Below, in pieces: positions 6,409 to 30,469 of a stretch of 37,580 nt of DNA. Numbering within the stretch: the stretch's first letter is position 1; each line of letters begins with the position of its first letter. A program made the position numbers and the translations under genes. The notes beneath the pieces are model-generated. The model was not told where the DNA came from, did no database searches, and saw only the letters and a list, made by a program, of their open reading frames with translations. Source of the stretch: Chitinophaga pinensis (GTDB taxonomy: Bacteria; Pseudomonadota; Gammaproteobacteria; Burkholderiales; Burkholderiaceae_C); assembly GCA_943326015.2 (NCBI GenBank), contig CALPRQ020000036.1:1-37580 (forward strand), in the 5' to 3' direction.

Positions 6409-6417
6409 CCCGCTAGT

Positions 6418-11507: not shown

Positions 11508-12055
11508 TTGCGGGTTTCCTCCTGTAGCTGCAGCGTGGCCGGTCGTTCGACCCAGTCGCCGGCCGCGTCCTGGGCGATCTCGCGCAGCACGATCTGATGC
11601 CCGTCGATCTGCATAATGCGTCCGAAATTCTGTCCCAGGTACTGGCCGACACCGACCTGGTAGAGCAGCTTGTCCACCCGGACCAGCGCCACCTTGCGGC
11701 CAGCCCGATCCATCAGGCCGACCATGGTCATGCTGTCGAGCGGAACCAGCTCCAGCGGCTCCTTGCGCCGATCGAGCTCGGCACGGACCAGGGTACTGCC
11801 GGCGCCCGCTGTGCTCTCGCTGCGCAACGCGATGAAAAGCTTCTCGGAACTGAAGGGCGACACGGCCGACTCGCTGCCATAGGCCTGCGGCACGAAGCGC
11901 TTGGGCTCGGCTATCGGTTCGACCTGGGGCGAGACGGCATTGCGCTGCTCGGTCATCCACTGATGGATCTCGTCATCCGAGCCCTGGCTGCAAGCCGTCA
12001 GCAGCAGGGCCAGGCCCAGGACGGCGACTTGCCGGGTGATACGGACAGGCCTCAT
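11504..12055 (-). CDS. pilP: Type IV pilus inner-membrane lipoprotein PilP
   Basis: PilP is a periplasmic lipoprotein that links the PilN/PilO inner-membrane pair to the PilQ secretin. The 183-residue precursor has the lipobox LLTAC with Cys22, a flexible linker with charged/Pro residues, and a C-terminal beta-domain containing ELVPLDSMTMVG and VGQYLGQNFGRI, which are family hallmarks. Its ATG overlaps the pilO stop (ATGA) and its stop overlaps the pilQ start in the same way, so translation is probably coupled across the operon. Confidence 0.96.
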   Translation of the reverse strand: MRPVRITRQVAVLGLALLLTACSQGSDDEIHQWMTEQRNAVSPQVEPIAEPKRFVPQAYGSESAVSPFSSEKLFIALRSESTAGAGSTLVRAELDRRKEPLELVPLDSMTMVGLMDRAGRKVALVRVDKLLYQVGVGQYLGQNFGRIMQIDGHQIVLREIAQDAAGDWVERPATLQLQEETRK

Positions 12056-12771
12056 TTCTTGCCCCCCTTCTGCTGCGAGGCCTTGCGGGCCTCCTTCTGG
12101 GACAGGATCTCGTCGGGATCGAGGTAGCGGAAGGTCTTGGCCGTGGCGTCCAGCGTCAGCTGACCGGACTGGACGGTCTGTGCGGGCTGGCCGGACTTGC
12201 CGACCGCCGGGGCGATCGTGAGGTTGTTGAGCGTGACGATGCGCGACAGCGCCGCGATGTCGGCCGCGAACAACGCGATGTCGTGGTAGCTGCCGGTCAC
12301 GCGCAAGGCAATGGGTTGCTCGGCGTAGTATTCCTGCACGTTGACGCTGCCAGGGCGAAACAGCTCGAACTGCAGGCTACGGCCAAGGCCGGCCTGGTTG
12401 ATATCGGACAGCAGCGCGTCCATCTCGGCCTTGCTGGGCAGCTGCTTCTCAAGCTGGTTGACGTAGACCTGGACCTGCTCGAGTTGCTGCTTGAGCGCCT
12501 CGAGATTGACTGCCTGGGCGAGCTTGGTCTGGTAGGTCTGGCGCAGCTCGGTTTCCTGCTGGCGTTCGGCTTCGAGCTCGTCGGACAGGCCGCTGAGCCA
12601 GGCATACCAGAGTCCCACGACGACCACCACCGCCACCGCGAACAGCAGCAGGTAGCGCGGCAACGCAGGCCAGCGCGAGGGGTCATTCCGATCCAGATTG
12701 GTGAAATCGTTGCGGACCCGCGTGCTCAGGGCGGCGAAGTCGATGGCGGGCGCTTGCTTGAATCTGGCCAT
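12052..12771 (-). CDS. pilO: Type IV pilus alignment protein PilO
   Basis: PilO pairs with PilN in the inner membrane to form the alignment subcomplex between the cytoplasmic PilM and the PilP/PilQ envelope parts. The 239-residue protein has a cytoplasmic N-tail (~38 residues), one membrane helix (about 39-60, YLLLFAVAVVVVVGLWYAWL), a coiled coil (about 65-115, rich in Gln/Glu/Leu) and a ferredoxin-like periplasmic domain. The conserved FELFRPG and EYYAEQPIALRVTGSYHD are present. The ATG at 12771 follows AGGAGAA and begins 13 bp after the pilN stop; longer in-frame readings overlap pilN. Confidence 0.96.
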   Translation of the reverse strand: MARFKQAPAIDFAALSTRVRNDFTNLDRNDPSRWPALPRYLLLFAVAVVVVVGLWYAWLSGLSDELEAERQQETELRQTYQTKLAQAVNLEALKQQLEQVQVYVNQLEKQLPSKAEMDALLSDINQAGLGRSLQFELFRPGSVNVQEYYAEQPIALRVTGSYHDIALFAADIAALSRIVTLNNLTIAPAVGKSGQPAQTVQSGQLTLDATAKTFRYLDPDEILSQKEARKASQQKGGKK

Positions 12772-14697: not shown

Positions 14698-17079
14698 ATG
14701 CCTGCTCGCCACCCCCACTCGAACTCGCCGGAGGGCCAGTCCTCTGCCCACGGCCAACGCCCATCCACGAGCTGGCGCTGGCTCAAGTGGCTGCTCGGTG
14801 CAGCCATCGCCAGCGTGCTGGCGCTGCTGCTGGCGCTGGGCATCGCGCTCGCGGTGGCTTTTCCCAATCTGCCCGACGTCGCGGCACTGGCTGACTACCG
14901 GCCCAAGCTGCCGCTGCGCGTGCTGAGCGCCGACGGCGAGACCATCGCCGAATTCGGCGAGGAACGGCGCAACCTGACGCCGATCGAGGACATCCCGCCG
15001 ATCATGATCAACGCCGTGCTGGCGATCGAGGACGCGCGCTTCTACGAGCACAGCGGCATCGACTACATCGGCATGCTGCGCGCGGCACTGGCCAACCTGG
15101 GCCGCTCCAAGAGCCAGGGCGCCTCGACCATCACGATGCAGGTCGCGCGCAACGTCTATCTATCGAGCGAGAAGAGCTACCAGCGCAAGATCTACGAGGT
15201 GCTGCTGACCTTCAAGCTAGAGGCCTTGTTGAGCAAGGACCAGATCCTCGGGATCTACATGAACCAGATCTTCCTGGGACACCGCGCCTACGGCTTCGCC
15301 GCCGCATCCCAGGTCTACTTCGGCAAGCCGCTCAAGGAGCTCACGATCGCCGAGGCCGCCATGCTCGCCGGCCTGCCCAAGGCGCCTTCGGCCTACAACC
15401 CGATCACCAACCCCAAGCGCGCCCGCATTCGCCAGCAGTACATCATCGAGCGCATGCAGGAAAACGGCTTCATCACCGCCGATCAGGCACGCGCGGCCAA
15501 GGAAGAGCAGTTGGTGCTGAAGCGCGACAGCGAAAAGCAGCCACTGCACGCCGAGTACCTGGCCGAGATGGTGCGCCAGGTGGTCTATCAGCAGTACGGC
15601 CCCGAGACCTACACCCGGGGTCTGACGGTACACACGACGCTGGATGCACAGGCGCAGCGTGCCGCCTACAACGCGCTGCGCCGCGGCGTGCTCGACTTCG
15701 AGCGCCGCCAGCATTACCGCGGCCCCGAGAAGTTCATCGAGCTGCCGGCTGACCCCAGGGCACGCACCGACGCCATCGATGAGGTCATGACCAACCGCCC
15801 CGACAGCGGCGAGCTGCGCACGGCAGTGGTGCTGGAGGCCGGACCACGCAAGGTGGTGGTGGTGCGCGGCGACGACGAACTGATCGTGATCACGGGCGAT
15901 GGCCTGAAGCCGGTGCAGTCGGGTCTGTCGGACAAGGCGCCACCCAACCTCAGGCTGCGCCCGGGCGCGGTGGTGCGAGTGGTCAGGAATGCAGCGGGGT
16001 GGGAGCTGACGCAGATGCCAGAGGTCGAGTCGGCCTTCGTCGCGCTCGACCCGCGCAGCGGCGAGATCCGCGCGCTGGTCGGCGGCTTCGACTTCGAGAA
16101 GAACAAGTTCAACCATGTGACCCAAGCCTGGCGCCAGCCGGGCTCGAGCTTCAAGCCCTTCATCTATTCGGCTGCACTCGAAAAGGGCATCTCGCCGGCG
16201 ACCGTGGTCAACGACGCTCCGCTCTACTTCAACGCCGGTGTCACGGGCGGCCAGCCCTGGGAGCCCAAGAACTACGACGGCAAGTTCGAAGGCCCGATGA
16301 CCGTGCGCACCGCACTGGCCAAGTCCAAGAACATGGTGTCGATCCGCATCCTGCAGACGGTGGGCACGGCAGAGGCGCAGCAGTGGGTCACGCGCTTCGG
16401 CTTCGATGCCGACAAGCACCCGCCCTACCTGACGATGGCGCTGGGCGCGGGCTCGGTCACGCCGCTGCAGATGGCGGCCGGCTACGGCGTGTTCGCCAAT
16501 GGTGGGCACTATGCCGCGCCGCGCTTCATCAGCCGGATTGACGACCACAGGGGCCGCGTGCTGCAGGAGTTCAAGCCGCCGGCGCTGGAAGACCTGCCAC
16601 GGGTGATCGAGCCGCGCAACGCCTTCGTCATGGGCCAGTTGCTCAACGAGGTCGCGCGCTCGGGTACCGCGGCACGCGCACAGGCTACGCTCAAGCGGCC
16701 CGACCTCTACGGCAAGACCGGCACCACCAACGATGCGGTGGACGCCTGGTTCGTGGGCTACCAGCCCACCCTGGTCGGTGCGGTCTGGGTGGGCTACGAC
16801 AACCCGCGCAACCTGGGCAGCCGCGAAACCGGCGGTGGCCTGTCGCTGCCGATCTGGATCAGTTTCATGCAGGAGGCGCTGCGCAACACGCCGGTGGCCG
16901 AGATACCGGTCCCGCCCGGCGTGGTCAACGTCCAGGGCGAGTGGTATTACGACAACTACGCGCCCGGCAAAGGCATAGCCAGGCTGGGCGGCGGCGAGGG
17001 CGCGAGCGAGGCAGCGAGCGAGGAGGTGCCGCCCGAATCGGAGGAAAAGCGCGGCATCATGGACCTGTTCAGGAACTGA
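14698..17079 (+). CDS. mrcA: Penicillin-binding protein 1A, bifunctional
   Basis: PBP1A (ponA/mrcA) polymerises lipid II glycan strands and cross-links the peptides at the periplasmic face of the inner membrane. The 793-residue protein has a cytoplasmic N-tail, one membrane anchor (about 31-54), and a GT51 transglycosylase domain with catalytic Glu111 in [14 protein letters not shown] and the [12 protein letters not shown] motif. An OB-like insert follows, then a transpeptidase domain with active Ser483 (SSFK), the SKN motif (543-545) and KTG (673-675). The length is typical. The C-terminal ~45 residues are Gly/Glu-rich and non-conserved. Divergence from pilM is the standard proteobacterial arrangement. 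Confidence 0.97.
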
Positions 17080-17398
17080 AGACCAGCGCCTGGCCGGCCT
17101 GCGCGCTGGCCTCGCGCGAGAGGTGGGCAAAGAACTCGCCCGCCCCCTTGCTGTCCTGCCACTGGCTGCCGTCGAACTGGTAGTGATAGCCGCCCGAGCG
17201 CGCGGCCAGCCAGATCTCGTGCAGCGGTTTCTGCAGGTTGATCACGATCTGGCTGCGGTTGGCAAAGGTCAGCGTGATCACGCCGCCGTTGCGCTGGTTG
17301 TCGATGTCGGCGTCGCTGTCGTCGTTGATGCGGTCGCAGGCCAGCTCGATGGCCTTGAGCACCGCTTCGGCGCGATCCATGTATTCGAGGTCGGTCAT
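17069..17398 (-). CDS. cyaY: Frataxin-like iron-binding protein CyaY
   Basis: CyaY is the bacterial frataxin, which binds iron and modulates Fe-S cluster assembly by IscS. The 109-residue protein has the acidic first helix ([18 protein letters not shown] and following DDSDADID), the beta-sheet segment [19 protein letters not shown], and the signature [16 protein letters not shown]. The ATG at 17398 gives the family-typical length; an upstream in-frame start at 17428 adds ten unmatched residues. The 3' end overlaps the ponA 3' end by 11 bp (convergent), and the 5' end faces lptM. Confidence 0.95.
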
Positions 17399-17639: not shown

Positions 17640-18926
17640 ATGTCCCAACTCGAACAAGCCCGCGCCGACCTGCCGGCCCGCCCCCACATCGACTACCGCG
17701 ACGGCCAGCTGATGGTCGAGGGGGTGTCCGCCGCCCAGCTGGCACGCGAGCACGGCACGCCGCTGTTCGTCTACTCGCAGGCGGTCATGCTGGACGCGCT
17801 GGCGGCCTACCAGCGCGGCTTCGCCGGCCGCGACGCGCTGATCTGCTATGCGATGAAGGCCAACTCGACGCTGGCGGTGCTGCGCACCTTCGTGCAGGCT
17901 GGCTGCGGCCTCGACATCGTCTCGGGCGGCGAGCTCGAGCGCGCGCTGCGCGCGGGCGTCGATCCGGCCAAGGTGATCTTCTCGGGCGTCGGCAAGACCC
18001 GGGCCGAGATGCGCCGCGCACTCGAAGCCGGCATCGGCTGCTTCAACGTCGAGAGCCTGCCCGAGCTCGACGTGCTGAGCGCGGTCGCCCACGAAATGGG
18101 CCTGCGTGCTCCGGTCAGCCTGCGCGTCAACCCCGACGTCGACGCCAAGACCCATCCCTACATTTCGACCGGCCTCAAGGGCAACAAGTTCGGCATCGCG
18201 CACACCGACGCGCTGGCGGCCTACCGCCACGCCGCCGCCCTGCCCGGCCTGAAGGTCACCGGCATCGACTGCCATATCGGCTCGCAGATCACCGAGACCT
18301 CGCCCTACCTCGATGCGATGGACCGGGTGCTCGACTTGGTCGATGCGATCGAGGCGGCCGGCATCCGGCTGGAGCACATCGACTTCGGCGGCGGCCTGGG
18401 CATCAACTACCACGGCGAGATCCCGCCGGCGGCCGATGCGCTCTGGCAGCTGCTGCTGGCCAAGCTCGACGCGCGCGGCTACGGCCAGCGCAAGCTCGTG
18501 ATCGAGCCCGGTCGCTCGCTGGTCGGCAACGCCGGCATCTGCCTGACCGAGGCGGTGTTCCTGAAACCCGGCGAACAGAAGAACTTCCTGATCGTCGACG
18601 CGGCGATGAACGACCTGCCGCGCCCGGCGATGTACGAGGCCTACCACGCCATCGTGCCGGTGCAGCCGCGCGAGAGCGAGGCACAGAGCTGGGACGTGGT
18701 CGGTCCGGTCTGCGAGAGCGGCGACTGGCTGGGCCGCGACCGCGCGCTCGCCGTGCAGCCTGGCGATCTGCTGGCGGTCTGCTCGGCCGGTGCCTACTGC
18801 ATGAGCATGTCGAGCAACTACAACACGCGCGGTCGCGCGGCCGAGGTGCTGGTCCAGGGCGACCAGGCGCGGCTGGTGCGCGCGCGCGAGTCGATAGCCG
18901 ACCAGCTGCGACTCGAATCGCTATAA
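17640..18926 (+). CDS. lysA: Diaminopimelate decarboxylase
   Basis: LysA decarboxylates meso-diaminopimelate to L-lysine, the last lysine step, using PLP. The 428-residue protein shows the Schiff-base Lys73 in YAMKAN, the SGGELERAL and HIGSQI motifs, the phosphate/substrate motif [11 protein letters not shown], the dimer-interface active-site motif [11 protein letters not shown], and the C-terminal [12 protein letters not shown]. The ATG at 17640 immediately follows the lptM stop. No intrinsic terminator with a T-run follows; a GC hairpin without T-tract is present at 18938-18955. Confidence 0.98.
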
Positions 18927-18961: not shown

Positions 18962-18986
18962 CTGCACGGTGGAGGATACCGTGCAG
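18962..18986 (+). promoter_or_regulatory. Translation-control hairpin over the ribosome binding site of the ANL/ATP-grasp gene
   Basis: CTGCACGGT (18962-18970) and ACCGTGCAG (18978-18986) form a perfect 9-bp stem. The 7-nt loop is GGAGGAT, which is the Shine-Dalgarno, and the GTG start codon (18981-18983) is inside the 3' arm. A second hairpin, CCTGGG/CCCAGG (18938-18955), lies just upstream. The structure would let ribosomes contact the SD but hide the start codon until the stem melts. The pairing is seen directly; the regulatory role is inferred. Confidence 0.6.
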
Positions 18987-21900
18987 CACAACATCACTCT
19001 CGACCTGATCGGTCATGCCCGGACGCGCCCGGATGCGCCGGCCCTGCTGCTTCCCCGCAGGACGATCAGCTGGTCAGAACTCGATGGACTGGTCTGGCAA
19101 TATGCCTGGCAGCTGCACAGCCTGGGCGTGCGGGCCGGCCAGGTCGTCGGACTGAGCTTCGCCGAGGAGCTCGGCCTGGTGCTGACGCTGCTGGCGCTCA
19201 CGCGCCTCGGGGCGACCGCCTATTCCATTGCGCGCAGCGCGACCGCCATCCAGCGCCGGCAGATGGCTGCACAGGCGCGAGTCGCCTGGCTCGCCAGTGA
19301 CCAGCCCGAGCAATTCGATGCCGGCGTCGCGGGCTTGCGGCTGGAACGCCGGGCGATCGAAGCCAGCCCGACCCGGATCGACGAGCGCCTCATGGTGCAA
19401 GCACCGGATGCCCCCTGGCTGCTGATCACGGGCTCGGGTTCGACCGGCCGACCCAAGCTGATCCCGGTCAGTCATGCGCAGGGGCGTGCCCGGTCCGAAC
19501 TGGGTGCCAGTGCCCTCGGGCTGAACCTGTCCGACCGCGTCGCCGCGCTGAGCCACTTCGATTTCTCGACCTCGAAGTTCCGCCTGCACGAGGCCTTGCG
19601 GGCCGGGGCAGCCTGCGCACTGGAGGTCTGGGCCGGGGCGGCCACGGTGCAACGCTGCGCCAGCACCGGACTCACCGTGCTCTACGGCACCGTCTTCCAT
19701 GCCGAAAAATTGCTCGAATCGCTGCCGGCAGGCAGCCGCAATGCCCTGCCGATGCTGCGGGCCTTCGAGCTCACGGCCTCGACGGTGAGCGACGAGCTGC
19801 GCCGGCGTATCCGGCAGACGCTGACGCCGCAGCTCCATGTCCGCTACGGCATCAACGAAGCAGGGCCGGTCGCGTTCGCGGGCCCGCCCGAGGTCTACCA
19901 GGTCCCGGGCACGGTCGGTCGCCCGCCTGCTGGCGTCGAAATCCAGGTAGTCGACCGGCGCGGACAGGCGCTGCCGCCCGCCACGGTGGGCCTGGTCCGG
20001 ATCAGGACGCCGGCCCTGGTCGACGGCTACCTCGGCGATGAGGCCGCCACGCACGCGAGCTTCCAGGATGGCTGGTTCCTGCCAGGCGACCTCGGGCTGC
20101 TCACCCGCGAGGGACAGCTGGTGTTCTACGGACGGGCCGACCACATGCTGATCATGAACGGGATCAACATCTATCCGGCCGAGATCGAGCAACTCATGGC
20201 CGCCCACCCCGATGTCGCCGATACAGCCGTGGTGCCGGTGCGACACCGCATCCATCAGGATATCCCGGTCTGCGCGGTAGCCCTCAGGGCGGGCTCGCAG
20301 GTCTCGGCGCAGGCTCTGCTCGACCATGCCAGGAGCCAGCTCGGCGTCCGCGGCCCCTGTCGGGTCCTGATTCTCGATGCGATCCCGCGCAACCACGAAA
20401 GCAAGCTGGTTCGCGCCGAACTGCTGCGCCAGATCGGGCACCGGCTGGCCCCTCCCGGAGCACAGGCGGACACCCGGAGCCCGCCAGCTGCACCCCTGAC
20501 AGACGCGGCCCGCCGCCGACAGCGGCTGCAGCCTTTCGAGCAGACCTTTGCCCTGCCCGAACCGATCGAGCTGCAGCAGCTCGACCGCTGGCTGGAGCAG
20601 GTGCTGCAAGCGCCGATCGACCGCGTCGATTCGACGGCCAAGCTGTCACCGCAGCAGCAGCGGGCTGGCCAGTGGCTGTGGCGCGCCCTGCTGCTCGCGC
20701 GCTGGCTGATGCAGGCGAGCCGGATTCCCGTGTTCGACCCGCCGCGCCTGCTCTCGCTGCAAGCGGCAACAAGCGGCAGCTGGCGGGCCAGGGTGGCGCT
20801 GGCCCTGGTCGATCAGCTGCCGGCCGCCGCCTATGCCGAAGCGCTGACGACGGCGCTCAGGCTCTGCGACTGGGCCGCCGCCAGGCCGCTGACCGACGCC
20901 GGCTTGCAAGTCTTCTACGACGCCGTCCACCAACTGGCGCGGACGCCACTGTCCAGGCTGATGTCCTGTGGCAAATCCACCCTGCCGCTGCTGCGGGCTG
21001 CCTACGACAAGGACATTCCCTTCATCCATCTGGGGGGCGGTATCTTCCAGCTCGGCTGGGGCAGCAAGGCCCACCGGATGGACCGCAGCGCGACCGAGCT
21101 CGATTCGGCCATCGGCGCGCGACTCGCACAAGGCAAGGCGTTGAGCACCAGCCTGTTGCACGGGGCGGGACTGCCAGCCCCCCAGCACCAGGTCGTGACC
21201 CAGCAGGCGGCCGCGCTGGCGGCTGCGCGCCAGCTGGGCTGGCCGGTGGTGGTCAAGCCGCAGGACCTGGACCGGGGCGAAGGGGTAGCGGTGGACATTG
21301 CGGACGAGGCGGCGCTCAAGATGGCCTTCGCCGCCGCGCAAGGCTTGTCGCCCAGCAGGCAGGTGATCGTCGAACGGCAGGTTCCCGGCTGCTGCCACCG
21401 CCTCTTCATCGCCAGGGGCCGGCTGCTGTATGCCGTCAAGCGCCTGCCGCTGTCCATCATGACCGATGGCCGGCATACGATCGCCGAACTCGTCCAGACC
21501 GAGGTGGACGCGCAACGACGCCTCGCTCCCTGGCAACGCTCGGCCATCCGGCCGCTGGACGAACTGGCACTGGCCGCGATAGCGGCAGCCGGCCATAGCA
21601 CCGACGCCATGCCGCCAGCCGGTATGCGGGTGGCCCTGCGCCGGATCGAATCGACCGCCTGGGGCGGTGTCGACGAAGAGGTGAGCGACATCGTCCACCC
21701 CGAAAACCTCAGGATCGCCATCGAGGCGGCCCGGCTGTTCGGGCTGGACATCGCGGGCATCGACCTCATCACGCCCGACATCACCCGGCCCTGGTTCGAG
21801 AACGGCGCCGTCATCAACGAGGTCAACTATTCGCCTCAGCTGGGCGGAGGGGAAATCTCCCGCCGCCATGTCCCGGCCCTGCTGGACTTGCTGGTGCAGG

Positions 21901-22208
21901 ACCGGGGCCGGATACCGATCGAGCTGTTCGTCGGCGACGAAGCGGCCTGGACGGCCGCCAGCCAGCGCTGGCAAGCGCTGCTGGCAGAAGGCCTGCGCGC
22001 CTACCTCAGCAGCGGCGAACTGACCCTCTCGCCGTCGGGTGCCCCGCACCACATGCTCTTGACGGGCTGCTATCGGCGAGCACGCGCGCTCGCGCTGTCG
22101 GCCGACGTGGACGCCATCGTGCTGGCGGTCCCGGCGCCGGAGTTCGCCAGCCATGAACTCCCGTTCGAAGGCGTGGACCACAGCGTGTGGAGGGTCACAG
22201 CACACTGA
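18981..22208 (+). CDS. Fusion of an ANL adenylating enzyme with a cyanophycin-synthetase-like ATP-grasp ligase
   Basis: A 1,075-residue protein of unknown product. Residues ~1-485 are an ANL (acyl/aryl/aminoacyl-AMP forming) domain: P-loop TGSGSTGRPK (150-159), A5-like YGINEAGP (289-296), A7-like LPGDLG (~367-372), hinge GRADHMLIMNGINIYPAEIE (~384-403) and catalytic A10 lysine in NHESKLVR (K475). A Pro/Arg-rich linker leads to an Ala-rich helical region (~550-660). A CphA-like stretch with GGGIFQLGWGSKAHR (~685-699) precedes an ATP-grasp fold with ATP-binding VVVKPQ (K759), VIVERQVPG and metal-site NEVN (946-949). The last ~95 residues resemble a degenerate CphA Mur-ligase segment. No carrier domain with a phosphopantetheine serine is seen. 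GTG at 18981 is preferred (GGAGG 5 nt upstream); GTG at 18969 would add four residues. Likely chemistry is carboxyl adenylation followed by amide ligation; substrates are unknown. Confidence 0.8.
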   Translation: MQHNITLDLIGHARTRPDAPALLLPRRTISWSELDGLVWQYAWQLHSLGVRAGQVVGLSFAEELGLVLTLLALTRLGATAYSIARSATAIQRRQMAAQARVAWLASDQPEQFDAGVAGLRLERRAIEASPTRIDERLMVQAPDAPWLLITGSGSTGRPKLIPVSHAQGRARSELGASALGLNLSDRVAALSHFDFSTSKFRLHEALRAGAACALEVWAGAATVQRCASTGLTVLYGTVFHAEKLLESLPAGSRNALPMLRAFELTASTVSDELRRRIRQTLTPQLHVRYGINEAGPVAFAGPPEVYQVPGTVGRPPAGVEIQVVDRRGQALPPATVGLVRIRTPALVDGYLGDEAATHASFQDGWFLPGDLGLLTREGQLVFYGRADHMLIMNGINIYPAEIEQLMAAHPDVADTAVVPVRHRIHQDIPVCAVALRAGSQVSAQALLDHARSQLGVRGPCRVLILDAIPRNHESKLVRAELLRQIGHRLAPPGAQADTRSPPAAPLTDAARRRQRLQPFEQTFALPEPIELQQLDRWLEQVLQAPIDRVDSTAKLSPQQQRAGQWLWRALLLARWLMQASRIPVFDPPRLLSLQAATSGSWRARVALALVDQLPAAAYAEALTTALRLCDWAAARPLTDAGLQVFYDAVHQLARTPLSRLMSCGKSTLPLLRAAYDKDIPFIHLGGGIFQLGWGSKAHRMDRSATELDSAIGARLAQGKALSTSLLHGAGLPAPQHQVVTQQAAALAAARQLGWPVVVKPQDLDRGEGVAVDIADEAALKMAFAAAQGLSPSRQVIVERQVPGCCHRLFIARGRLLYAVKRLPLSIMTDGRHTIAELVQTEVDAQRRLAPWQRSAIRPLDELALAAIAAAGHSTDAMPPAGMRVALRRIESTAWGGVDEEVSDIVHPENLRIAIEAARLFGLDIAGIDLITPDITRPWFENGAVINEVNYSPQLGGGEISRRHVPALLDLLVQDRGRIPIELFVGDEAAWTAASQRWQALLAEGLRAYLSSGELTLSPSGAPHHMLLTGCYRRARALALSADVDAIVLAVPAPEFASHELPFEGVDHSVWRVTAH

Positions 22209-22349: not shown

Positions 22350-23009
22350 ATGTTGCTAACAGTGGGTTCCTCGCCAGATAGCCGGTTTTCTTTCGGATAC
22401 CGGCAACGAGACCAGGGCATCACCCTGCTTGAGCTGATGGTGACGGTTGCGATCGTGGGGATACTCGCGATGCTGGCCGCACCCGCCTTCGACTCCATGG
22501 TCAAGGCCAACCGTACCAAGTCGGTCGCCAACGAGTTGCTGGCATCGCTGAATCTGGCGCGCTCGGAGGCGGCACGCCGCGGCCAGCCGGTCAGCGTCTG
22601 CCGCAGCGACGATGGCAGCAACTGCGCGACGAGTGGCACGGGCTGGGATAAGGGCTGGATTGTCTTTGTCAACGAGAACCACACCAACGCCAAAGAGCGT
22701 GAAACCGCTGTGCGCGACAAAGGCGAGCAACTGCTGCAGGTCAGGCGGGATCTTCCCGCCGGGATCACGGTACGCCCCAATGGCAACTTCCTGCAGTCAC
22801 TGACCTACCTGCGAACGGGCCTGCTCTGGAATGGCCTGGGAACCGGAACCTTCGCCGTTTGCGCCGGCAGCGACAAGGCTATCGCCAAGAGAAAGCCGCA
22901 AGCCATCGTGGTGAATGCAACCCGCGCCATCCTGGCAACGGATGGCAACGGCGACGGCATCCCCGAGAAGGGCGACGCAGGCAACCTCCAGAGCTGCGAA
23001 ACCCCATGA
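22350..23009 (+). CDS. fimT: Minor pseudopilin FimT/FimU (GspH family)
   Basis: A 219-residue type IV minor prepilin, GspH/FimT family. The 23-residue leader ends at Gly23, followed by ITLLELMVTVAIVGILAML with Glu at +5, the prepilin peptidase site and N-terminal helix. The family stretch NELLASLNLARSEAARRGQPV follows, and a pair of Cys residues lies in the globular part (CRSDDGSNC). Unusually, residues 198-209 form an EF-hand-like loop DGNGDGIPEKGD close to the C-terminus. It is the first gene of the minor-pilin operon; its stop overlaps pilV by ATGA. FimT versus FimU cannot be settled from sequence alone. The ribosome binding site is weak. Confidence 0.88.
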   Translation: MLLTVGSSPDSRFSFGYRQRDQGITLLELMVTVAIVGILAMLAAPAFDSMVKANRTKSVANELLASLNLARSEAARRGQPVSVCRSDDGSNCATSGTGWDKGWIVFVNENHTNAKERETAVRDKGEQLLQVRRDLPAGITVRPNGNFLQSLTYLRTGLLWNGLGTGTFAVCAGSDKAIAKRKPQAIVVNATRAILATDGNGDGIPEKGDAGNLQSCETP

Positions 23010-23482
23010 TGCCCGATCCAAGGTCCGCGCGCGGCGCCTCACTGCTGGAAGTCCTGGTCACCATCGTGATCATGGCCGTGGGCCTGCTGGGACTGGCCAA
23101 GCTGCAGGTCAGCAATCTGCGCAACAACCAGAATACCCTCTACCGCACCGAGGCGACCTTCCTGGCCAACGACATGCTCGACAGCATGCGCGTGCTCAAC
23201 AGCGTGGCGCCAAATGACAAGGCTGACGATTACGCGGTATTGACTGACAGCACAGCAGCGGCCGGCCCCAGCGCAGTGGCGCTTGCCGACGTCAGCGCCT
23301 GGAAGGCCCGGATCGCACAGGCCTTGCCAGGAGGCGATGGCTCCATCAGCGTCAATGGCCGGATCGCCACGATAGTTATCGAATGGAATGATCGCCGCGC
23401 CGGCACGCCAGGCAGCGCGGACAGCTGCAGCAGCAGCAAGACCGTGCGCCCGGCCTGCTTCGAGACGCAGGGGGGCGTATGA
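23006..23482 (+). CDS. pilV: Type IV pilus minor pilin PilV
   Basis: PilV is a core minor pilin that helps prime pilus assembly and display PilY1. The 158-residue prepilin has a 10-residue leader ending in Gly10, then ASLLEVLVTIVIMAVGLLGL with Glu+5, and the family stretch LAKLQVSNLRNNQNTLYRTEATFLANDMLD. The start at 23006 overlaps the fimT stop (ATGA); a second ATG directly follows at 23009. Its stop overlaps the pilW start by ATGA. An Asp/Ala/Ser-rich globular domain with two Cys near the C-terminus completes it. Confidence 0.92.
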   Translation: MMPDPRSARGASLLEVLVTIVIMAVGLLGLAKLQVSNLRNNQNTLYRTEATFLANDMLDSMRVLNSVAPNDKADDYAVLTDSTAAAGPSAVALADVSAWKARIAQALPGGDGSISVNGRIATIVIEWNDRRAGTPGSADSCSSSKTVRPACFETQGGV

Positions 23483-24639
23483 AGCGGCACGCCCGCGGGG
23501 TCACGCTGGTCGAGCTGATGGTCAGCATCAGCATAGGACTGGTCGTTGCCGGTGCGATGGTCGCGCTCTACATCGGCACCGCACGCAGCTACCGCCAGAT
23601 CGAAGCGCTGGGACAGCTGCAGTCGAACGCACGCTATGTATTCGAGATCATGGGCTACGACATCCGGATGGCGGGCAATACAGGCTGCCATGTCCCACGG
23701 GGGGGGACTGCCACCCCCCCGCCAGCGAACTTCGTGAACGACTACGCCAATCCCAATTACTGGTGGAGCAACACCGACCAGCCGCTGCGGGGCTTCGATG
23801 AAACGGCTGACAGCAATGCCGTCGGCGATGCAGGATTTCCCCGGATCGCACCCGGCAATTACGGGCCCAACGCGCTGCGCGGAGACTCGATCATCGTGCT
23901 GCGGGCCAACACGGAAGACAACACCGGCAGCGTGACCAACTACAACCTGGGTGCGGGGGACATACCGTTCGACGACCCGAGCGGCAAGGGCTTCAAGGCC
24001 GGGGCCCTGCTCCTGCTGACCGACTGCACCAACCAGGCGGCGGTGTTCCAGAAGACCGGCGGCACCGATACCGGTCCGATCCAGCACAGGAAAAGCAGCA
24101 ACGGCAGCGCCAGCAACCCGGGCAACTGCGAGGATACCCTGGCAGGCAGCTGTGCTTCAGCCGGTAGCCTTGTGAGCATGACCGGAGCCAAGTTGCTCCC
24201 CCTTTCAGCCAGCGCCTACTACCTGCGCAGCAGCCCCTACAAATACCCCAACAGCAACCAGAACATCCCCACGCTCTACCGCCAGACACTGGGCACGAAG
24301 TCCGGCCAGGTAGACACCCAACCCGAGGAACTGGTCAGCGGCGTCACCGACCTGCAAATACGCTATGGCGTGGACACCAGCGCGACACCCGATGGCGTCG
24401 TGGACGCCTACATGACGGCGGCGGCTTTCAACGCCGCTGGCTATTCCTGGGACTGGACGGACAACCCGACGCAACGCCGCGTGCTCGCAGTGCGAGTGAC
24501 CATCACCCTCGAATCAGCCGACAACTCGGTCGCCAGCGAAAGTACCAGCTTCACGCTCGGCAACGGCAACGTCATCACCGACCGGCGACTGCGCCGCAGC
24601 TACACGATGACTTTCGGCATCCGCCAGAGGCTGTCATGA
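23479..24639 (+). CDS. pilW: Type IV pilus minor pilin PilW
   Basis: A 386-residue minor prepilin. The very short leader ends at Gly7, then VTLVELMVSISIGLVVAGAMVALY with Glu+5, followed by the PilW-type NARYVFEIMGYDIRMAGNTGC. The C-terminal region contains PEELVSGVTDLQIRYGVDT and YTMTFGIRQRLS, characteristic of PilW. Positions 23699-23706 are eight consecutive G and 23714-23720 seven consecutive C, encoding Arg-Gly-Gly-Thr-Ala-Thr-Pro-Pro, so the reading frame is sensitive to slippage there. It is joined to pilV and pilX by ATGA overlaps. Confidence 0.93.
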   Translation: MKRHARGVTLVELMVSISIGLVVAGAMVALYIGTARSYRQIEALGQLQSNARYVFEIMGYDIRMAGNTGCHVPRGGTATPPPANFVNDYANPNYWWSNTDQPLRGFDETADSNAVGDAGFPRIAPGNYGPNALRGDSIIVLRANTEDNTGSVTNYNLGAGDIPFDDPSGKGFKAGALLLLTDCTNQAAVFQKTGGTDTGPIQHRKSSNGSASNPGNCEDTLAGSCASAGSLVSMTGAKLLPLSASAYYLRSSPYKYPNSNQNIPTLYRQTLGTKSGQVDTQPEELVSGVTDLQIRYGVDTSATPDGVVDAYMTAAAFNAAGYSWDWTDNPTQRRVLAVRVTITLESADNSVASESTSFTLGNGNVITDRRLRRSYTMTFGIRQRLS

Positions 24640-25292
24640 ATCCCTTGCCCCGCGCCACAATTCACGCCCGTCAATGCTCGCAGCACGGCATGGTCCTGGT
24701 CACCGGCCTGCTGCTGCTGGTCATGGTCACGCTGGTCGTGCTGGGAGCTTCCCGCGGTGGCCGGCTGCAGACTGTGATGGCCAGCAACACCCGGGACCGG
24801 GACCTCGCCTTCCAGGCGGCCGAAGCGGCACTGCTCGACGGCGAAGAAAGAGTCACCGCCTTCCACGACGTTTTCACCGCCCCCGCCAATTTGGATGCAC
24901 CCAATCCAGCAGCAGGCCTGCTGAACCGGAACGCCTTGGCAACTACCGAAAAGACCCGCCTCATCGTGCTCGGGTCGAAGAGTGACTACTGGGTCAGTCC
25001 GGCCGGAACGGATGGCTATGGCTGGTTCGACGGCAACGGCGGAATCGACAGCAGCAAATCGATCACATCGAACAAGACGGTTTCGGGCGTCGATGCACAA
25101 CCGAGGTTTGTCGTCGAATACCTCGGCAAGGCAAGCAACAGCGGCCTCGGCGGCAGCCGATGCGGCAATCAATCCCACCACCGCTACCGCATCACGACGC
25201 TGGCCGTCGGCGCCTCGGCGGGATCACGCAAGCAGGCCGATACGCGCGTGATGCTGCAAAGCGAATATGCCTTGTGCGCCAGCGCGCCCTGA
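24636..25292 (+). CDS. pilX: Type IV pilus minor pilin PilX
   Basis: A 218-residue protein of the PilX family. The leader ends at Gly18 (QHG), followed by MVLVTGLLLLVMVTLVVLG; as usual for PilX (and the GspK-like tip pseudopilins), Glu at +5 is absent and Thr is found there. The next segment (SNTRDRDLAFQAAEAALLDGEE) is the PilX_N hallmark. Probably part of the tip-priming complex with PilV, PilW and PilY1. The start overlaps the pilW stop; the pilY1 ATG follows after 29 bp. Confidence 0.92.
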   Translation: MNPLPRATIHARQCSQHGMVLVTGLLLLVMVTLVVLGASRGGRLQTVMASNTRDRDLAFQAAEAALLDGEERVTAFHDVFTAPANLDAPNPAAGLLNRNALATTEKTRLIVLGSKSDYWVSPAGTDGYGWFDGNGGIDSSKSITSNKTVSGVDAQPRFVVEYLGKASNSGLGGSRCGNQSHHRYRITTLAVGASAGSRKQADTRVMLQSEYALCASAP

Positions 25293-25321
25293 ATGACATC
25301 GCCACCGAAGGGGAATCATCG

Positions 25322-28300
25322 ATGAAAAAGTCACGACTGCAACTGACCTTGGCGGGCTTGCTGCTGTCGGGACCGGCTGGCAGCTTCGACATGTCGAACG
25401 TCCCGCTGTTCGTGACCAGCAACGTCGCCCCCAACCTGGTGCTGACGCTGGACGATTCCGGCAGCATGCGACGCGCCTTCGTCCCGGAACATTGCAACGA
25501 TGCCAGCGATTGCGAGGCGCTCGACAACCGCTGGAGCAAGGCGGCCAACGGCAACGCGCTCTACTACAACCCTGATGTCTACTACCCCCCACCGTTCAAT
25601 GCCGACCTGAGCCGGCGCACGACCAGCTTTGGCGCCGCCTGGCGCAACGGCTACTACCCCGAGGCAGGCTCGGTCAATTTGGGTACCGACTATCGCCCGA
25701 CGGCTGGCCTGCAGATGAACGGGAATTTCTCGTGCGCAGGCAACGGCGGCAGCAGCAGTGGCGACCTGTGGTTCGAGTGCCACATGGGGCATTACAGCGA
25801 CGATCTGGGGACACTGGGGGCTGCCAGTGTAAGCAGCCCTGCCAAGGCCCATTATTACAACTACAACACCGGATTGCCCAGCTGCAAGACCCTGCCCGTT
25901 GCCAGCCGCAAGAACGCGAACGAGTGCTATCAGCTGGTCATCGTGGGCGCCAGTTCGGGGCCGGGCCTGACCGACATCAACGGCGACAGCGTTGTCACGG
26001 CCCAGGACCGGGACGAACGGCAGAACTTCGCCAACTGGTACTCGTTCTACCGGACCCGCAATCTGGCCGTCATCTCGGCCGCCTCGCTGGCCTTTGCCAA
26101 CCTCAGCGCCACGTCGCGGCTGTCCTGGCAGGCGCTCAATACCTGCCGCGACTCGCCCAGCTCGCTCGTGACCCGCAACTGCAATGGCTGGAGCGGCAGC
26201 TTCGGCAGCAACGCGATCAACGTCTTCGGCAACGCCGCCCACAGGCAGAACTTCTACGGCTGGCTGTCCAGATTGCCCATGAGCGGTGACACGCCGCTGC
26301 GCGAGGCGCTGATCCGGGCCGGCGAATACTTCAAGACCACTGGCGAGAACAGCCCCTACGACAACGACCTCAGCGCGGGCAATTCGGATCAGTACAGCTG
26401 CCGGCGCAACTTCCACATCCTGATGACGGACGGCATTTGGAACGACAGCCTGAGCGACATCGGCGACATCGACGGTCAGTCCATCCCGGGCCTGCCTGAC
26501 GAGGCGCGCACGCCCTACGACGCGAAGAACAAGGCCTATGGCGACAGTACGCGCAACACGCTGTCGGACCTGGCGTTCAAGTACTGGGCAACCGACCTGG
26601 TGCCATCACTCCCGAACAAGCTGACCCCGCTCATCGAAGCGCAAGACGACTACGACGCTCTGGGACACTACGGAACCGGAAACGGTATCCAGGACACGAC
26701 GCAACAGATTTTCTGGAACGCCAGGAACAATCCGGCGACCTGGCAGCACATGGTCAACTTCACGATCGGCCTGGGCCTGACGGACTATCTGCAGAAAGCG
26801 GGGCTGAACTGGACCGGCGACATGTACGGCGGCAGCTATCTCGATCTGATGAACGGCAGCAAGAACTGGCCACCGGCGACCGAGAGCATGGGCCGGTGGG
26901 GTGACGAATACGGCAAGAGCGCACACGACCTCTGGCACGCGGCGATCAACAGCCGCGGCCGCTTCTTCAGCGTCGAGTCGCCGCAAGCCCTGCGCGATGC
27001 CTTCGAGAGGATCCTGTCCATGGTCGAGGCTGCGACACCGACTGCGGCAGCGCTGGCCAGCAACTCGACCAATACCAGCAGCAATGCAGGCCAGAAGACC
27101 CGGGTCTTCCAGGCCCGCTTCGACACCCGCTACTGGAACGGAAGCCTCTACGCACTCGAAGTCGAGGGCCAAACCGGAGCCATCAGCGGCCCGGTCTGGG
27201 ACGCTGGTGCCAAACTGAACCAGCTGGCGGCCAGCAATGGGCGCAAGATCTTCATGCGCGGCAAGGCTGGTGCAGCCAACCTGGGCTGGAGCAATCTGAC
27301 CCCAGCCCAGCAAACGGCCCTGAACCAGTCAGATGGCAACGGCAGCCTGCGACTGAACTGGCTGCGCGGTGACCACTCCAAGGAGCAGCGCTTCATCGGT
27401 GGCCTGTTCCGCAACCGCACGGCCTTCGAGCTCAACTACGACGGCACGATGCGGCAGACGGGCAGCGAATGGCTGCTGGGCGACATCGTGGCTTCCGACC
27501 CGCTTTACGTCGGCACTGGCAGCCAGCAGTACGACCTGCTGCCCGCCGGAGCTCCCGGCCGGGACAGCTACACCGCCTACGTCAGCGCCAAGGCGAGCAG
27601 AACGCCCATGATCTATGTCGGCGCCAACGACGGCATGCTGCACGCCTTCCGCGCGACCGACGGCGTCGAGCAGTTCGCCGTGATCCCCAACGCGGTCTTT
27701 CCCAACCTGCACCAGCTGACCAAGCCAAGCTATACCCACCGCCACTACGTGGACGGCTCGCCCAGCGGCGGTGATGCCTTCCTCGGCGGCGCCTGGAAGA
27801 CCGTGGTGGTGACCGGCTTGCGCGCGGGCGGCAAGTCGGTGTTTGCCGTCGATGCCACGCAAGCCGATAACCCGACGGCCAGCCAGTTCATGTGGGAGTT
27901 CAACGCCGACGGCAGCGACGACAACATGGGCTACAGCTACAGCCAGCCGCAGGTGGTTCGCCTCAACGACGGCAACTGGGCCGCCGTGTTCGGCAACGGC
28001 TACAACAGCAAGAATGGCGGCGTGTCGCTCTACATCGTCAACCTGGCAGACGGCAGCCTGATCAAGCGCATCGAGGCCGTCAAGAATGACGTCGACAACG
28101 GCCTGTCCACTCCCACCCTGGTCGATACCGACGGCGACCGCATCGTCGATACGGCATATGCCGGTGACCTGAAAGGCAAGGTCTGGAAGTTCGACCTGAA
28201 GTCCGGCTCGGCTTCGAACTGGAGCGGGTCCGGATTTTTCACGGCGCAGGACGGCAGTGGCAACCCGCAGCCGATCACGGTGCAGCCCAATGTGGTCAAG

Positions 28301-28963
28301 GGCGACCGCGGCTACTGGGTCTTCTTCGGCACGGGCCGCATGCTGTCGAGCACCGACATCGCGGCTGCGGCCATGTCGAAACGGCAGAGTTTCTACGGCC
28401 TGTGGGACAACAACACGGCGATCGCTGGCCGCAGCGCCTTGGTCGAACAGACCGTGACCGGCACCGCCAGCAAGAATGGCATGAACCTGCGGGTCACATC
28501 CAACAACGAGGTCAACCTGACTGTCAAGCGTGGCTGGTACATGGATCTGCCCAGCAGCGGCGAACGGGTGACCGCCGAAGCGGCGACCGTGATCGACAAC
28601 GTCAACCAGGACGACAACCGGATCGTTTTCACGACCGCCATCCCGTCCGCCGATCCGTGCAACGCACAAGGCACGAGCTGGCTGATGGAGCTGTCGTTCA
28701 AGGGCAGACGCCCCACGCAACCGGCATTCGACCTGAACAGCGATCTGAAGTTTGACTCGGGAGACACCGTGCTCGACGGCGTCATTCCCACCGGAATGCA
28801 ATCCACGGTCGGCATCATGGACTCGGTGACATGGCTGGACCGAGATGCCGATGTGGCCTTCAAGCTGGCGCCGGGCACCAAGGGCAAGGTCCAGACCATC
28901 GCCAACCGTGGGCGTGGGCTGGGAGGACGCAGCAGGCGGGTGAGCTGGCAGCAGCTGATGTAG
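25322..28963 (+). CDS. pilY1: Type IV pilus tip adhesin PilY1
   Basis: PilY1 is secreted, sits at the pilus tip, and controls adhesion, extension/retraction and surface sensing. The 1,213-residue precursor has a signal peptide (about 1-20), a divergent von Willebrand A-like N-terminal part with the MIDAS-type DDSGSM (44-49), and an EF-hand-like loop DINGDSVVTAQD (218-229) inside it. An RGD tripeptide (682-684, WLRGDHS) lies in a conserved family stretch. The C-terminal beta-propeller contains GDIVASDPLYVG, MIYVGANDGMLHAFRATDG (from about 763) and the calcium-loop-like DTDGDRIVD (935-943). The ATG at 25322 follows AAGGGGA. Upstream in-frame codons lie within pilX. Confidence 0.95.
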   Translation: MKKSRLQLTLAGLLLSGPAGSFDMSNVPLFVTSNVAPNLVLTLDDSGSMRRAFVPEHCNDASDCEALDNRWSKAANGNALYYNPDVYYPPPFNADLSRRTTSFGAAWRNGYYPEAGSVNLGTDYRPTAGLQMNGNFSCAGNGGSSSGDLWFECHMGHYSDDLGTLGAASVSSPAKAHYYNYNTGLPSCKTLPVASRKNANECYQLVIVGASSGPGLTDINGDSVVTAQDRDERQNFANWYSFYRTRNLAVISAASLAFANLSATSRLSWQALNTCRDSPSSLVTRNCNGWSGSFGSNAINVFGNAAHRQNFYGWLSRLPMSGDTPLREALIRAGEYFKTTGENSPYDNDLSAGNSDQYSCRRNFHILMTDGIWNDSLSDIGDIDGQSIPGLPDEARTPYDAKNKAYGDSTRNTLSDLAFKYWATDLVPSLPNKLTPLIEAQDDYDALGHYGTGNGIQDTTQQIFWNARNNPATWQHMVNFTIGLGLTDYLQKAGLNWTGDMYGGSYLDLMNGSKNWPPATESMGRWGDEYGKSAHDLWHAAINSRGRFFSVESPQALRDAFERILSMVEAATPTAAALASNSTNTSSNAGQKTRVFQARFDTRYWNGSLYALEVEGQTGAISGPVWDAGAKLNQLAASNGRKIFMRGKAGAANLGWSNLTPAQQTALNQSDGNGSLRLNWLRGDHSKEQRFIGGLFRNRTAFELNYDGTMRQTGSEWLLGDIVASDPLYVGTGSQQYDLLPAGAPGRDSYTAYVSAKASRTPMIYVGANDGMLHAFRATDGVEQFAVIPNAVFPNLHQLTKPSYTHRHYVDGSPSGGDAFLGGAWKTVVVTGLRAGGKSVFAVDATQADNPTASQFMWEFNADGSDDNMGYSYSQPQVVRLNDGNWAAVFGNGYNSKNGGVSLYIVNLADGSLIKRIEAVKNDVDNGLSTPTLVDTDGDRIVDTAYAGDLKGKVWKFDLKSGSASNWSGSGFFTAQDGSGNPQPITVQPNVVKGDRGYWVFFGTGRMLSSTDIAAAAMSKRQSFYGLWDNNTAIAGRSALVEQTVTGTASKNGMNLRVTSNNEVNLTVKRGWYMDLPSSGERVTAEAATVIDNVNQDDNRIVFTTAIPSADPCNAQGTSWLMELSFKGRRPTQPAFDLNSDLKFDSGDTVLDGVIPTGMQSTVGIMDSVTWLDRDADVAFKLAPGTKGKVQTIANRGRGLGGRSRRVSWQQLM

Positions 28964-28975
28964 CAAGGTGGACCG

Positions 28976-29422
28976 ATGAACCCGACATCCTCTTTCGACA
29001 GGCGACGGGTCACGGCGGGCTTCAGCCTGCTGGAGCTCGTGATCACGGTCGCGATCGTCGGCGTGCTGGCCTCCATCGCCATGCCGTCCTATGTCAGTCA
29101 TCTGGCGCGGGGCAAGCGGGCCGAGGTCAAGGGCGCGCTGCAGGAGAACGCACAATTCCTCGAGACCTACTACACGACCCGTGGCTTCTACTCGACGGCC
29201 AAGGGCAGCAACAAGGCAGCCACCCTGCCGGTCATCCAGGTGCCCAGTTCGGGGACAGCCAACTACACCATCACGGCGACGGTCACGAACACGAGCTATA
29301 CGCTGACGGCCAAGGCGGTGAACACGATGGCAAAGGATGACTGCGGCAACTTCACGCTGACGCACACCGGCACGCAGGGCGTCAGTGGCAAGCTGGGCGT
29401 AGCCGAATGCTGGAACCGCTAG
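28976..29422 (+). CDS. pilE: Type IV minor pilin PilE
   Basis: A 148-residue prepilin with a 15-residue leader ending at Gly15, then FSLLELVITVAIVGVLASIAMPSYV with Glu+5, and the RGKRAEVKGALQENAQFLETYY helix typical of the PilE/ComP group. The C-terminal DCGNFTLTHTG ... AECWNR supplies the disulphide-bounded D-region. It starts 12 bp after pilY1 with an AAGGTGGA ribosome binding site and closes the operon, as pilE does in Pseudomonas. It ends 21 bp from the convergent msrP with no evident terminator. Confidence 0.92.
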   Translation: MNPTSSFDRRRVTAGFSLLELVITVAIVGVLASIAMPSYVSHLARGKRAEVKGALQENAQFLETYYTTRGFYSTAKGSNKAATLPVIQVPSSGTANYTITATVTNTSYTLTAKAVNTMAKDDCGNFTLTHTGTQGVSGKLGVAECWNR

Positions 29423-29443: not shown

Positions 29444-30469
29444 TCAGTAGTGGCGCTGCAGGTCCATCCCGGCGTAAAGCTGCGCGACCTGGGCGGCGTA
29501 GCCATTGAACGGCAGGGTCGGACGACGCTTGGCAAACAGGCCGCCGGCCTCGCCGAGCCGGCGCTCGCTGGACTGGCTCCAGCGCGGATGCGGCACATCC
29601 GGGTTGACGTTGGAATAAAAGCCGTATTCGCGCGGAGCGGCCAGGTTCCAGGAGGTGCGGGGCATCTGCTCGACCAGGCGTATCCTGACAATGGACTTCG
29701 CGCTCTTGAAGCCATATTTCCAGGGCACGACCAGCCGCAGCGGCGCGCCGTTCTGGTTCGGCAACAGCTCGCCGTAGAGGCCGAAGGCCAGCAGCGTCAG
29801 CGGGTGCATGGCCTCGTCGAGCCGCAGGCCCTCGACATAGGGCCAGTCGAGCACGCCAGCGCTCAGGCCGGGCATGGTCGCCGGGTCGGACAGCGTGGTG
29901 AATTCGACGTATTTCGCGCTGCCCAGCGGCTCGACCTGCCTGAGCAGCCCGGCCAGCGAGTAGCCGACCCAGGGAATCACCATCGACCAGCCCTCGACGC
30001 AGCGCAGGCGATAGATGCGCTCCTCCATGGCACCGAGCTTGAGCAGATCCTCGATGCCGAAGCTGCGCGGCTTGCCGACCAGGCCTTCGACCCGCAGCGT
30101 CCAGGGCCGGGTCTTCATGCGGTGAGCGTGGCGGGCCGGATCGGACTTGTCGGTGCCGAACTCGTAGAAATTGTTGTAGCCGGTGACGTCGGCGTAGGGG
30201 GTAAGCGGCTCCGTCGTGAGGGCGCCCGGCACGCTGGAGCGCACTCCCGGCAGCGGCGCCAGTTTGCCGGGCCGCGTGACGAAGCCGGTCGGAGCCGTGC
30301 CGGAAGCGGTCTCAGCCGCCTGCACCAGCCCCTGATGCGGACCCAGCGCCATGACGCTGCCGGCTGCCACGAACTGGCGCAGCAGCGTCCGGCGCTGATG
30401 CCAGACCTCGGGCGGAGTGATTTCACTCGGCGGCGGAGCGCTTCGCGGGTCTGTGATTCGGATCAACAT
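29444..30469 (-). CDS. msrP: Protein-methionine-sulfoxide reductase catalytic subunit MsrP (YedY)
   Basis: MsrP is a periplasmic molybdopterin enzyme that reduces methionine sulfoxide in envelope proteins. The 341-residue precursor carries a Tat signal with the twin arginine at 26-27 ([13 protein letters not shown]). The Mo-coordinating Cys157 is in [16 protein letters not shown], and the conserved [18 protein letters not shown] and [18 protein letters not shown] follow. The usual haem-b membrane partner MsrQ is not adjacent: pilE is on the downstream side and ccsB on the upstream side. The ATG at 30469 has only a weak ribosome binding site. It lies 140 bp beyond ccsB, behind a terminator, so it probably has its own promoter. 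Confidence 0.96.

Follow-up and report, generated by a model that had tools for sequence, protein, structure and literature searches.

A carrier-free fusion of an ANL adenylating enzyme and a cyanophycin-synthetase-type ATP-grasp that may belong to an undescribed family of peptide- or protein-decorating ligases

Results

Gene and domain organization

The window, a stretch of 37,580 nucleotides (contig CALPRQ020000036.1), carries between lysA and a set of minor pilin genes a single gene. Judged from its domains, the product combines an ANL adenylating enzyme and an ATP-grasp of the cyanophycin-synthetase (CphA) type, and no carrier domain was found in it; the ANL part takes up about the first 490 residues and the CphA-like part the rest. 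The stop-free open reading frame (ORF) has 1079 codons (18969-22208, plus strand), and residues are numbered from its opening at 18969. The GTG at 18981, the start chosen in the initial annotation of this DNA, is preferred to 18969 because GGAGGA lies just 5' of it and the GTG starts called in three orthologues align with it, which gives one protein of 1075 residues. The same annotation placed the gene between lysA and the minor pilins and saw two carboxylate-activating engines in one chain; the setting is as it described, and in searches the first half matches the ANL family and the second half CphA. Coordinates are collected in Table 1, with those of short ORFs at related loci; loci and genomes are denoted by L and G numbers.

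Table 1. Features of the window and short ORFs beside related ATP-grasp genes
Feature	Source	Positions	Strand	Basis or remark
lysA, 54 bases upstream of GTG 18981	window	17640..18926	+	TIGR01048
GGAGGA, likely ribosome-binding site for GTG 18981	window	18971..18976	+	sequence
Fused ANL - ATP-grasp ligase gene	window	18981..22208	+	ORF open from 18969; GTG at 18981 preferred
ANL N-terminal (AMP-binding) domain, residues 16-355	window	19014..20033	+	PF00501 E 1.3e-36; motifs
ANL C-terminal domain, residues 405-479, A10 Lys479	window	20181..20405	+	PF13193 E 4.4e-10
Low-confidence linker; carrier domain or phosphopantetheine motif not found	window	20433..20522	+	
CphA N-domain-like region without HxxEH	window	20526..20960	+	fold only (predicted model, Foldseek); profile comparison negative
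ATP-grasp (CphA G domain)	window	20961..21845	+	K723, K763, R811, R825, D932, E951 kept; CphA His267 position is R769
CphA Mur-ligase (M) domain remnant, P-loop changed to GDEAAWT	window	21849..22205	+	hhalign E 3.8e-8, single comparison
GspH-type pilin, PilW, PilX, PilY1 and ComP-type pilin genes	window	22350..29422	+	
LDxxKLxGF-like short ORF	L121	7183-7356		
LDxxKLxGF-like short ORF	L079	about 11983-12165		
LDxxKLxGF-like short ORF	L077	about 1018-1239		
LDxxKLxGF-like short ORF	L128	8574-8705		
LDxxKLxGF-like short ORF	L152	about 11556-11795		
APYG...KVGGGKG short ORF	L117	12457-12555		
APYG...KVGGGKG short ORF	L123	about 10621-10773		

The ANL half

The motifs of the ANL half are complete in the window: TGSGSTGRPK at 154, YGINE at 293, PGDL at 372, GRADHMLIMNG at 388 and PRNHESK at 473, called here by the usual names of ANL motifs (A5, A7, A8, A10 and so on). 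With the PF00501 and PF13193 matches they bear out the annotated ANL domain with its key motifs and A10 lysine. By its domains, P-loop, A5, A7 and A8 motifs and A10 lysine the protein is a member of the ANL superfamily, and adenylate formation is predicted. Across 15 aligned ANL rows the A7 aspartate and the A8 arginine are invariant, and the A5 glutamate and the A10 lysine are each present in 14; the nine fusions found all have the A7 aspartate and the A8 arginine, and eight have the A10 lysine. Amino-acid specificity was considered from the A4 aspartate, but Asp198 is found in 10 of the 15 rows and not in the L117, L126 and L092 fusions, so no substrate is claimed. The structural matches include MatB, MenE and benzoate-CoA ligase near the top and the McbA/CysC type at ranks 46-47; this mixture of coenzyme A (CoA) ligases, A domains and amide synthetases does not tell the types apart.

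The family scan gave no carrier family at E <= 0.1 in the window protein, a GxDS-type carrier motif was not found in it, and no serine in the linker is conserved across the aligned relatives. The statement that no phosphopantetheine motif lies between the halves thus stands. A concealed carrier domain in the linker is rejected, with neither a family nor a motif match, and as far as its domains show the protein is not a nonribosomal peptide synthetase (NRPS) module, the peptidyl carrier (PCP) domain that would follow the A domain not being found.

The ANL tree joins eight of the nine fusions with support of 81/81, the L092 fusion falling outside, and is less firm than the tree of the C-terminal half (C half). 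L076 and L120 form a pair in it (92/87). Every unfused ANL of the fusion group (two at L090, one each at L091 and L120) comes from a genome that also carries a fusion. Two further proteins of Rubrivivax MAG52 contain ANLs: that of L091 is an ANL by itself (56% identical), and that of L090 (1204-4698) is a SnoaL-ANL-ANL protein whose second ANL is 57% and first 42% identical, and in which no carrier match was obtained. Fusion-type ANLs (642-767 bits) occur in 3 of 399 genomes of the order, all three with the ATP-grasp, and the next best match has 415 bits; this co-occurrence test is weak, as the profile included sequences of those three genomes. At L137 (8347-10078) a related ANL lies beside a TctC-type receptor and is followed by a small carrier-protein-like ORF, its carrier motif recognized by eye.

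The ATP-grasp half

A cyanophycin synthetase model matches window residues 623-958 (E 1.2e-71, 242 bits), and CphA1 of PDB entry 7lgn matches the C half with E 1.2e-52. Scores against the two NCBIfam cyanophycin synthetase models, 205.7 and 242 bits, fall below the cut-offs of 850 and 877. Structural comparison used a model of the C half with a predicted local distance difference test (pLDDT) of 91.8, the full-length model (pLDDT 69) being poor in the ATP-grasp and set aside. The best solved matches in Foldseek are CphA1 and CphA2; the first of them, 7wae, aligns over 581 columns with gaps included (TM to query 0.65, rmsd 7.3). The region before the ATP-grasp agrees with the CphA N domain in fold only, a profile link between the two not being found, and the final 119 residues align in one hhalign comparison with the beginning of the Mur domain of CphA, the GxxGKT P-loop being lost. 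On these grounds the CphA-like flanks of the initial annotation are confirmed.

The roles of CphA residues, including the Asp-binding N394, R323 and R458 and the loop residue H267, follow PMC9427784 (papers cited by PubMed Central (PMC) number are drawn on as excerpts throughout). An alignment of 34 ATP-grasps shows no variation at the equivalents of CphA K220, K261, R323, D431 and N452; E450 is glutamate or aspartate, and R309 is arginine in 33 of the rows. The ATP/Mg residues K220, K261, R309, D431 and E450 are kept in the window, and those listed are present in all nine fusions. The R323 equivalent is also kept; those of N394, S396, R458 and H267 are replaced, so that three of the four tested Asp-binding or loop residues (N394, R323, R458, H267) have changed. 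The His267 position is arginine in 22 of the 24 closest rows. The N-domain HxxEH is absent from the window C half, as it is from CphA2 (PMC9262961). Because most of the residues that make CphA an aspartate ligase are replaced, the C half fails as a cyanophycin synthetase on sequence grounds, and a role in cyanophycin storage is rejected on these active-site residues and the lost Mur site. The genome of the window has a complete cphA elsewhere, as well as a cphA-like gene without the Mur P-loop.

The C-half tree of 42 rows separates a family that has 24 rows and support of 100/100 from CphA as well as from another group of short ATP-grasps. All nine fusions group with two unfused proteins, L078 and L120 (99/97), and L076 and L120 share one group with weak support (84/45).

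The second short CphA-like group comprises L080, L081 and L082. L080 adjoins a Calx-beta giant and a GT41-sulfotransferase protein, and L081 and L082 adjoin a protein of 3122 residues and what seem to be genes for type I secretion (by eye; one methyltransferase was scanned). The ATP-grasp of G1182 (L152, 9591-10472) seems interrupted, its match beginning at profile position 242 with 293 residues called.

Distribution and selection

Listing genomes with the same architecture, as the initial annotation had proposed, yields nine genomes of six genera: G000, G001, G003 and G004 of one genus, G193, G423 (Rubrivivax MAG52), G662, G532 and G1100. Four of the five genomes of the window's genus have the fusion, and G002 is without it. 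The lysA of the window is 93-94% identical to those of named Malikia records, so that the window probably comes from Malikia or a close neighbour of it. Because it recurs in this way, the fusion is not an assembly accident. With a C-half profile (A1, E <= 1e-105) the C half is found in 8 of 399 genomes of the order (fused in 3), 4 of 398 of the phylum (fused in 2) and 4 of 283 of the class (fused in 1); these tallies include the window's own genome, and the samples overlap. In the family sample a single C-half protein query at 1e-50 matches 111 of 399 genomes, many of the frames being of CphA size, with fusion in 5. Among matching records, one place covering 80% of the query was found in 0 of 2701 in the plasmid collection and 0 of 56 in the phage collection.

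Nonsynonymous to synonymous substitution ratios (dN/dS) for the six pairs of four orthologues are 0.16-0.26 in the ANL and 0.14-0.29 in the ATP-grasp, compared with 0.38-0.65 in the linker and N domain and 0.26-0.45 in the tail. Both enzyme halves are under purifying selection and are maintained in Malikia.

In G662 the two halves are also encoded by separate genes that overlap by one base, the ATP-grasp at L120 8862-10691 and, downstream, an ANL at 10691-12241 that is 44% identical to the window ANL. A second split pair, at L079, was withdrawn: its ANL, with no more than 31% identity, has a TctC receptor as neighbour, and gdhB also intervenes between ANL and ATP-grasp.

Gene neighbourhoods

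The lysA of G002 is 97% identical to that of the window. Three of the four upstream genes compared are closer to the window in G002 than in fusion-bearing relatives, the exception being a 109-residue gene (17069-17398) that is closer in L040, and identity in six downstream genes is 82-99%. In G002, however, the interval from lysA to the counterpart of 29444-30469 is without the fusion and holds a different, inverted pilin set (<=45% identical). What differs in this pair is a single block made up of the fusion and the pilin/PilY1 genes. A functional connection with pili would explain this, and so would mere exchange of the block, and the comparison does not decide between them; the pilins or PilY1 are only a candidate target of the window copy.

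The aKG-HExxH (alpha-ketoglutarate) peptide hydroxylase, TIGR04267, was sought in G002 and in 19 genomes that have a family member. Six of these 20 genomes hold a single copy, whose match is in each case less than 1 kb away from the match of a family ATP-grasp; in the other 14 it was not found. A seventh locus, L152, was fetched later by the ATP-grasp profile alone and has the hydroxylase with an LDSNKLLGFK...GAKIGK peptide. All seven have a short predicted Lys/Gly-rich ORF with the hydroxylase, beside non-fused sisters of the fusion. Two types of predicted peptide occur at the first six loci: an LDxxKLxGF-type start with a Lys/Gly-rich remainder (L121, L079, L077, L128), and one with APYG and KVGGGKG (L117, L123). 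The six peptides scanned matched no family above its cut-off; that of L123 resembles a lasso peptide model below threshold, with 15 bits against a cut-off of 33. The peptides are poor in acidic residues, and PsnB, one of the graspetide ligases that link acidic side chains of a peptide to those of Ser, Thr or Lys, is a distant fold match to the C-half model (rank 46). A regular-expression scan of 149 sequences gave one further match, L082, which is taken for chance; the expressions were written from the six TIGR04267 loci, so absence elsewhere means little. The LDxxKLxGF-type ORFs beside ATP-grasp and hydroxylase are a candidate class of undescribed ribosomally synthesized and post-translationally modified peptides (RiPPs). 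A candidate RiPP precursor was found at seven loci of non-fused relatives and not at the window copy. The ORF and regular-expression scan found no peptide-like ORFs near fusions except in the G532 cluster, where the fusion is one gene, an epimerase, away from the HExxH gene. At L118 a 112-residue ORF with GGPP-type repeats (6365-6703, minus strand) lies 76 bases upstream of the ATP-grasp and is a possible peptide substrate.

Other relatives lie beside secreted giants. The split pair of L120 is flanked on one side by an RTX protein of 2611 residues and on the other by type I secretion genes of the opposite strand. At L125 (8696-15112) and L127 (8612-13732), from two genomes of different families, the ATP-grasps are near autotransporters and an iron/2-oxoglutarate (Fe/2OG) oxygenase, and the ATP-grasp of L151 is beside a two-partner secretion (TPS) adhesin and an ornithine-cyclodeaminase-like gene. 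The absence of obvious pathway neighbours noted in the initial annotation holds for the window copy and not for some relatives, which have a peptide hydroxylase with short peptides, secreted giants or an ANL gene nearby.

Discussion

Proposed function

The fusion is tentatively read as a bifunctional, carrier-free ligase that forms two bonds, with a peptide or protein as the most likely acceptor because of the family neighbourhoods; confidence in this reading falls a little short of even. The ANL half would adenylate a small carboxylic or amino acid and hand the adenylate directly to an amine (or to CoA), and the ATP-grasp half would make an acyl-phosphate and form a second amide bond. By keeping the two catalytic centres close to each other, the fusion would do what a carrier domain does in a peptide synthetase. 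In the HExxH clusters the acceptor would be the short ribosomal peptide rich in Lys and Gly, and elsewhere a secreted surface protein. Domain make-up, nucleotide-binding residues, purifying selection, recurrence, the unfused adjacent pair and the neighbourhoods are observed; from these we infer catalysis by both halves, the order of the steps, the direct transfer, the substrates and the peptide or protein target. The two-bond amide or peptide product of the initial annotation is plausible in this light, with carrier-free precedent in cystargolide and E-64.

Several observations weigh against a peptide- or protein-directed ligase. The ORFs beside the hydroxylase are predicted only, and neither a peptide gene nor the hydroxylase was found near the Malikia fusions; TIGR04267 was found in none of the five genomes of that genus, nor in G193, G423 and G1100, some of these being incomplete. 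The putative class of secreted-giant neighbours was defined after the loci had been viewed, and among the neighbours scanned neither hydroxylase and peptide nor secreted giant was seen beside L076, L078, L119, L126, L041, L122 and L124. The Rubrivivax fusion is without the A10 segment, and some fusions may therefore have an inactive ANL half; the A5 glutamate is aspartate in the L119 fusion, and the His267-to-Arg change sits in the ATP-grasp loop. Of seven related ANLs retrieved that do not belong to the fusion group, five adjoin, or are one gene away from, a TctC-type transport receptor (by BLAST; the exceptions are L139 and the second ANL of L140), which is a catabolic CoA-ligase setting. 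The data agree just as well with a product that is a CoA thioester, or with an adenylate that a third protein consumes.

An alternative that is possible though rather unlikely is a free small molecule, an N-acyl or aminoacyl dipeptide (a signal, siderophore-like or protective compound) made without a ribosomal target, the ANL acylating a first amino acid and the ATP-grasp adding a second. It has a chemical precedent in CysC/CysD of cystargolide (PMC11427300), RND efflux genes are located beside the G193 fusion, and peptide genes were not found near fusions except in G532. On the other hand, that non-fused sisters have a peptide hydroxylase and short ORFs for peptides, or secreted giants, as neighbours suggests polypeptide substrates for the family.

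It is improbable that the protein combines an ATP-grasp ligase with an acyl-CoA ligase whose thioester serves another enzyme, the fusion being regulatory or a convenience. The A8 stretch of the window ANL, NGINIYPAEIE, resembles acyl-CoA ligases, and MatB, MenE and benzoate-CoA ligase among the top structural matches, the TctC-linked sister ANLs and a separate ANL gene next to the L119 fusion agree with such an activity. These fold matches, however, cannot separate CoA ligases from A domains and amide synthetases, and the unfused ANLs of the fusion group come only from fusion-bearing genomes, within a group whose support is just 81/81 and leaves L092 outside.

A catalytically dead passenger or regulator in one half has a very small probability. 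The missing A10 lysine in Rubrivivax and the M-domain remnant, which shows that the lineage loses active sites, speak for it; the conservation of the A7, A8 and ATP/Mg residues in every fusion and of the A10 lysine in all but one, and the low dN/dS of both halves in Malikia, speak against it.

Least probable of all is a synthetase of cyanophycin or another polyamide storage polymer with an ANL starter module, and the storage peptide suggested at first finds no support if it is taken to be cyanophycin-like: the C half has CphA ancestry and CphA2 polymerises beta-Asp-Arg dipeptides (PMC9262961), but the N394, S396, R458 and H267 equivalents are replaced, HxxEH (though missing in CphA2 too) and the Mur P-loop are absent, and cphA and a cphA-like gene are present elsewhere in the genome.

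Returning to a ligase acting on peptides or proteins, a broader and more doubtful proposal is that a new class of CphA-derived ligases tailors ribosomal peptides and secreted surface proteins. One set would work with the aKG-HExxH hydroxylase on Lys/Gly-rich peptides with LDxxKLxGF-type leaders, and the ANL-bearing branch would attach an adenylate-activated acid and an amino acid without a carrier. The fusion may thus be an entry to a family of CphA-derived ATP-grasp, HExxH hydroxylase and short Lys/Gly-rich peptide, a combination whose description was not seen in the open-licence PMC literature. The peptide clusters make the chemistry of the family testable by co-expression and mass spectrometry, and a self-contained, carrier-free ligase with two activations in a single chain would be of use for enzymatic amide synthesis.

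Comparison with known systems

The initial annotation knew of no characterised enzyme with this order of domains, and no description of an ANL - ATP-grasp fusion is apparent in the open-licence PMC literature searched; among the best 60 of 201 PDB chains the best matching stretch never spans both halves. With NRPS A domains and stand-alone ANL ligases (MenE, MatB, benzoate-CoA ligase, McbA) the window protein shares the ANL fold and motifs, but it has no carrier and is fused to an ATP-grasp. With CphA1 it shares the G domain and the ATP/Mg residues, the N domain by fold and a remnant of the M domain; it differs in the added ANL, the lost Mur active site and the lack of H267, N394, S396, R458 and HxxEH. 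CphA2 (PDB 7ta5, 8fxh, 8fxi) is similar to the C half in fold and length, but identity over the fold alignment is about 19-22%, and CphA2 has no ANL and polymerises beta-Asp-Arg dipeptides.

RiPP clusters with an aKG-HExxH hydroxylase (such as pfl/pos and biphenomycin; PMC12636437) likewise pair the HExxH family with a short ORF of leader-core-like form. They differ in that the peptide ORFs of the window's relatives are Lys/Gly-rich, and the term 'ATP-grasp' does not occur in the text of that paper.

Carrier-free assembly by an ANL and an ATP-grasp is established for separate enzymes (PMC11427300, PMC12568646). In cystargolide the ANL CysC acylates valine and the ATP-grasp CysD adds a second valine (PMC11427300), and E-64 is made by an ATP-grasp and an amide bond synthetase in the reverse order, also without a carrier (PMC12568646). 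These are separate proteins with known small substrates, likened here to the window protein by function; what they share with its proposed chemistry is an ANL and an ATP-grasp working in series without a carrier.

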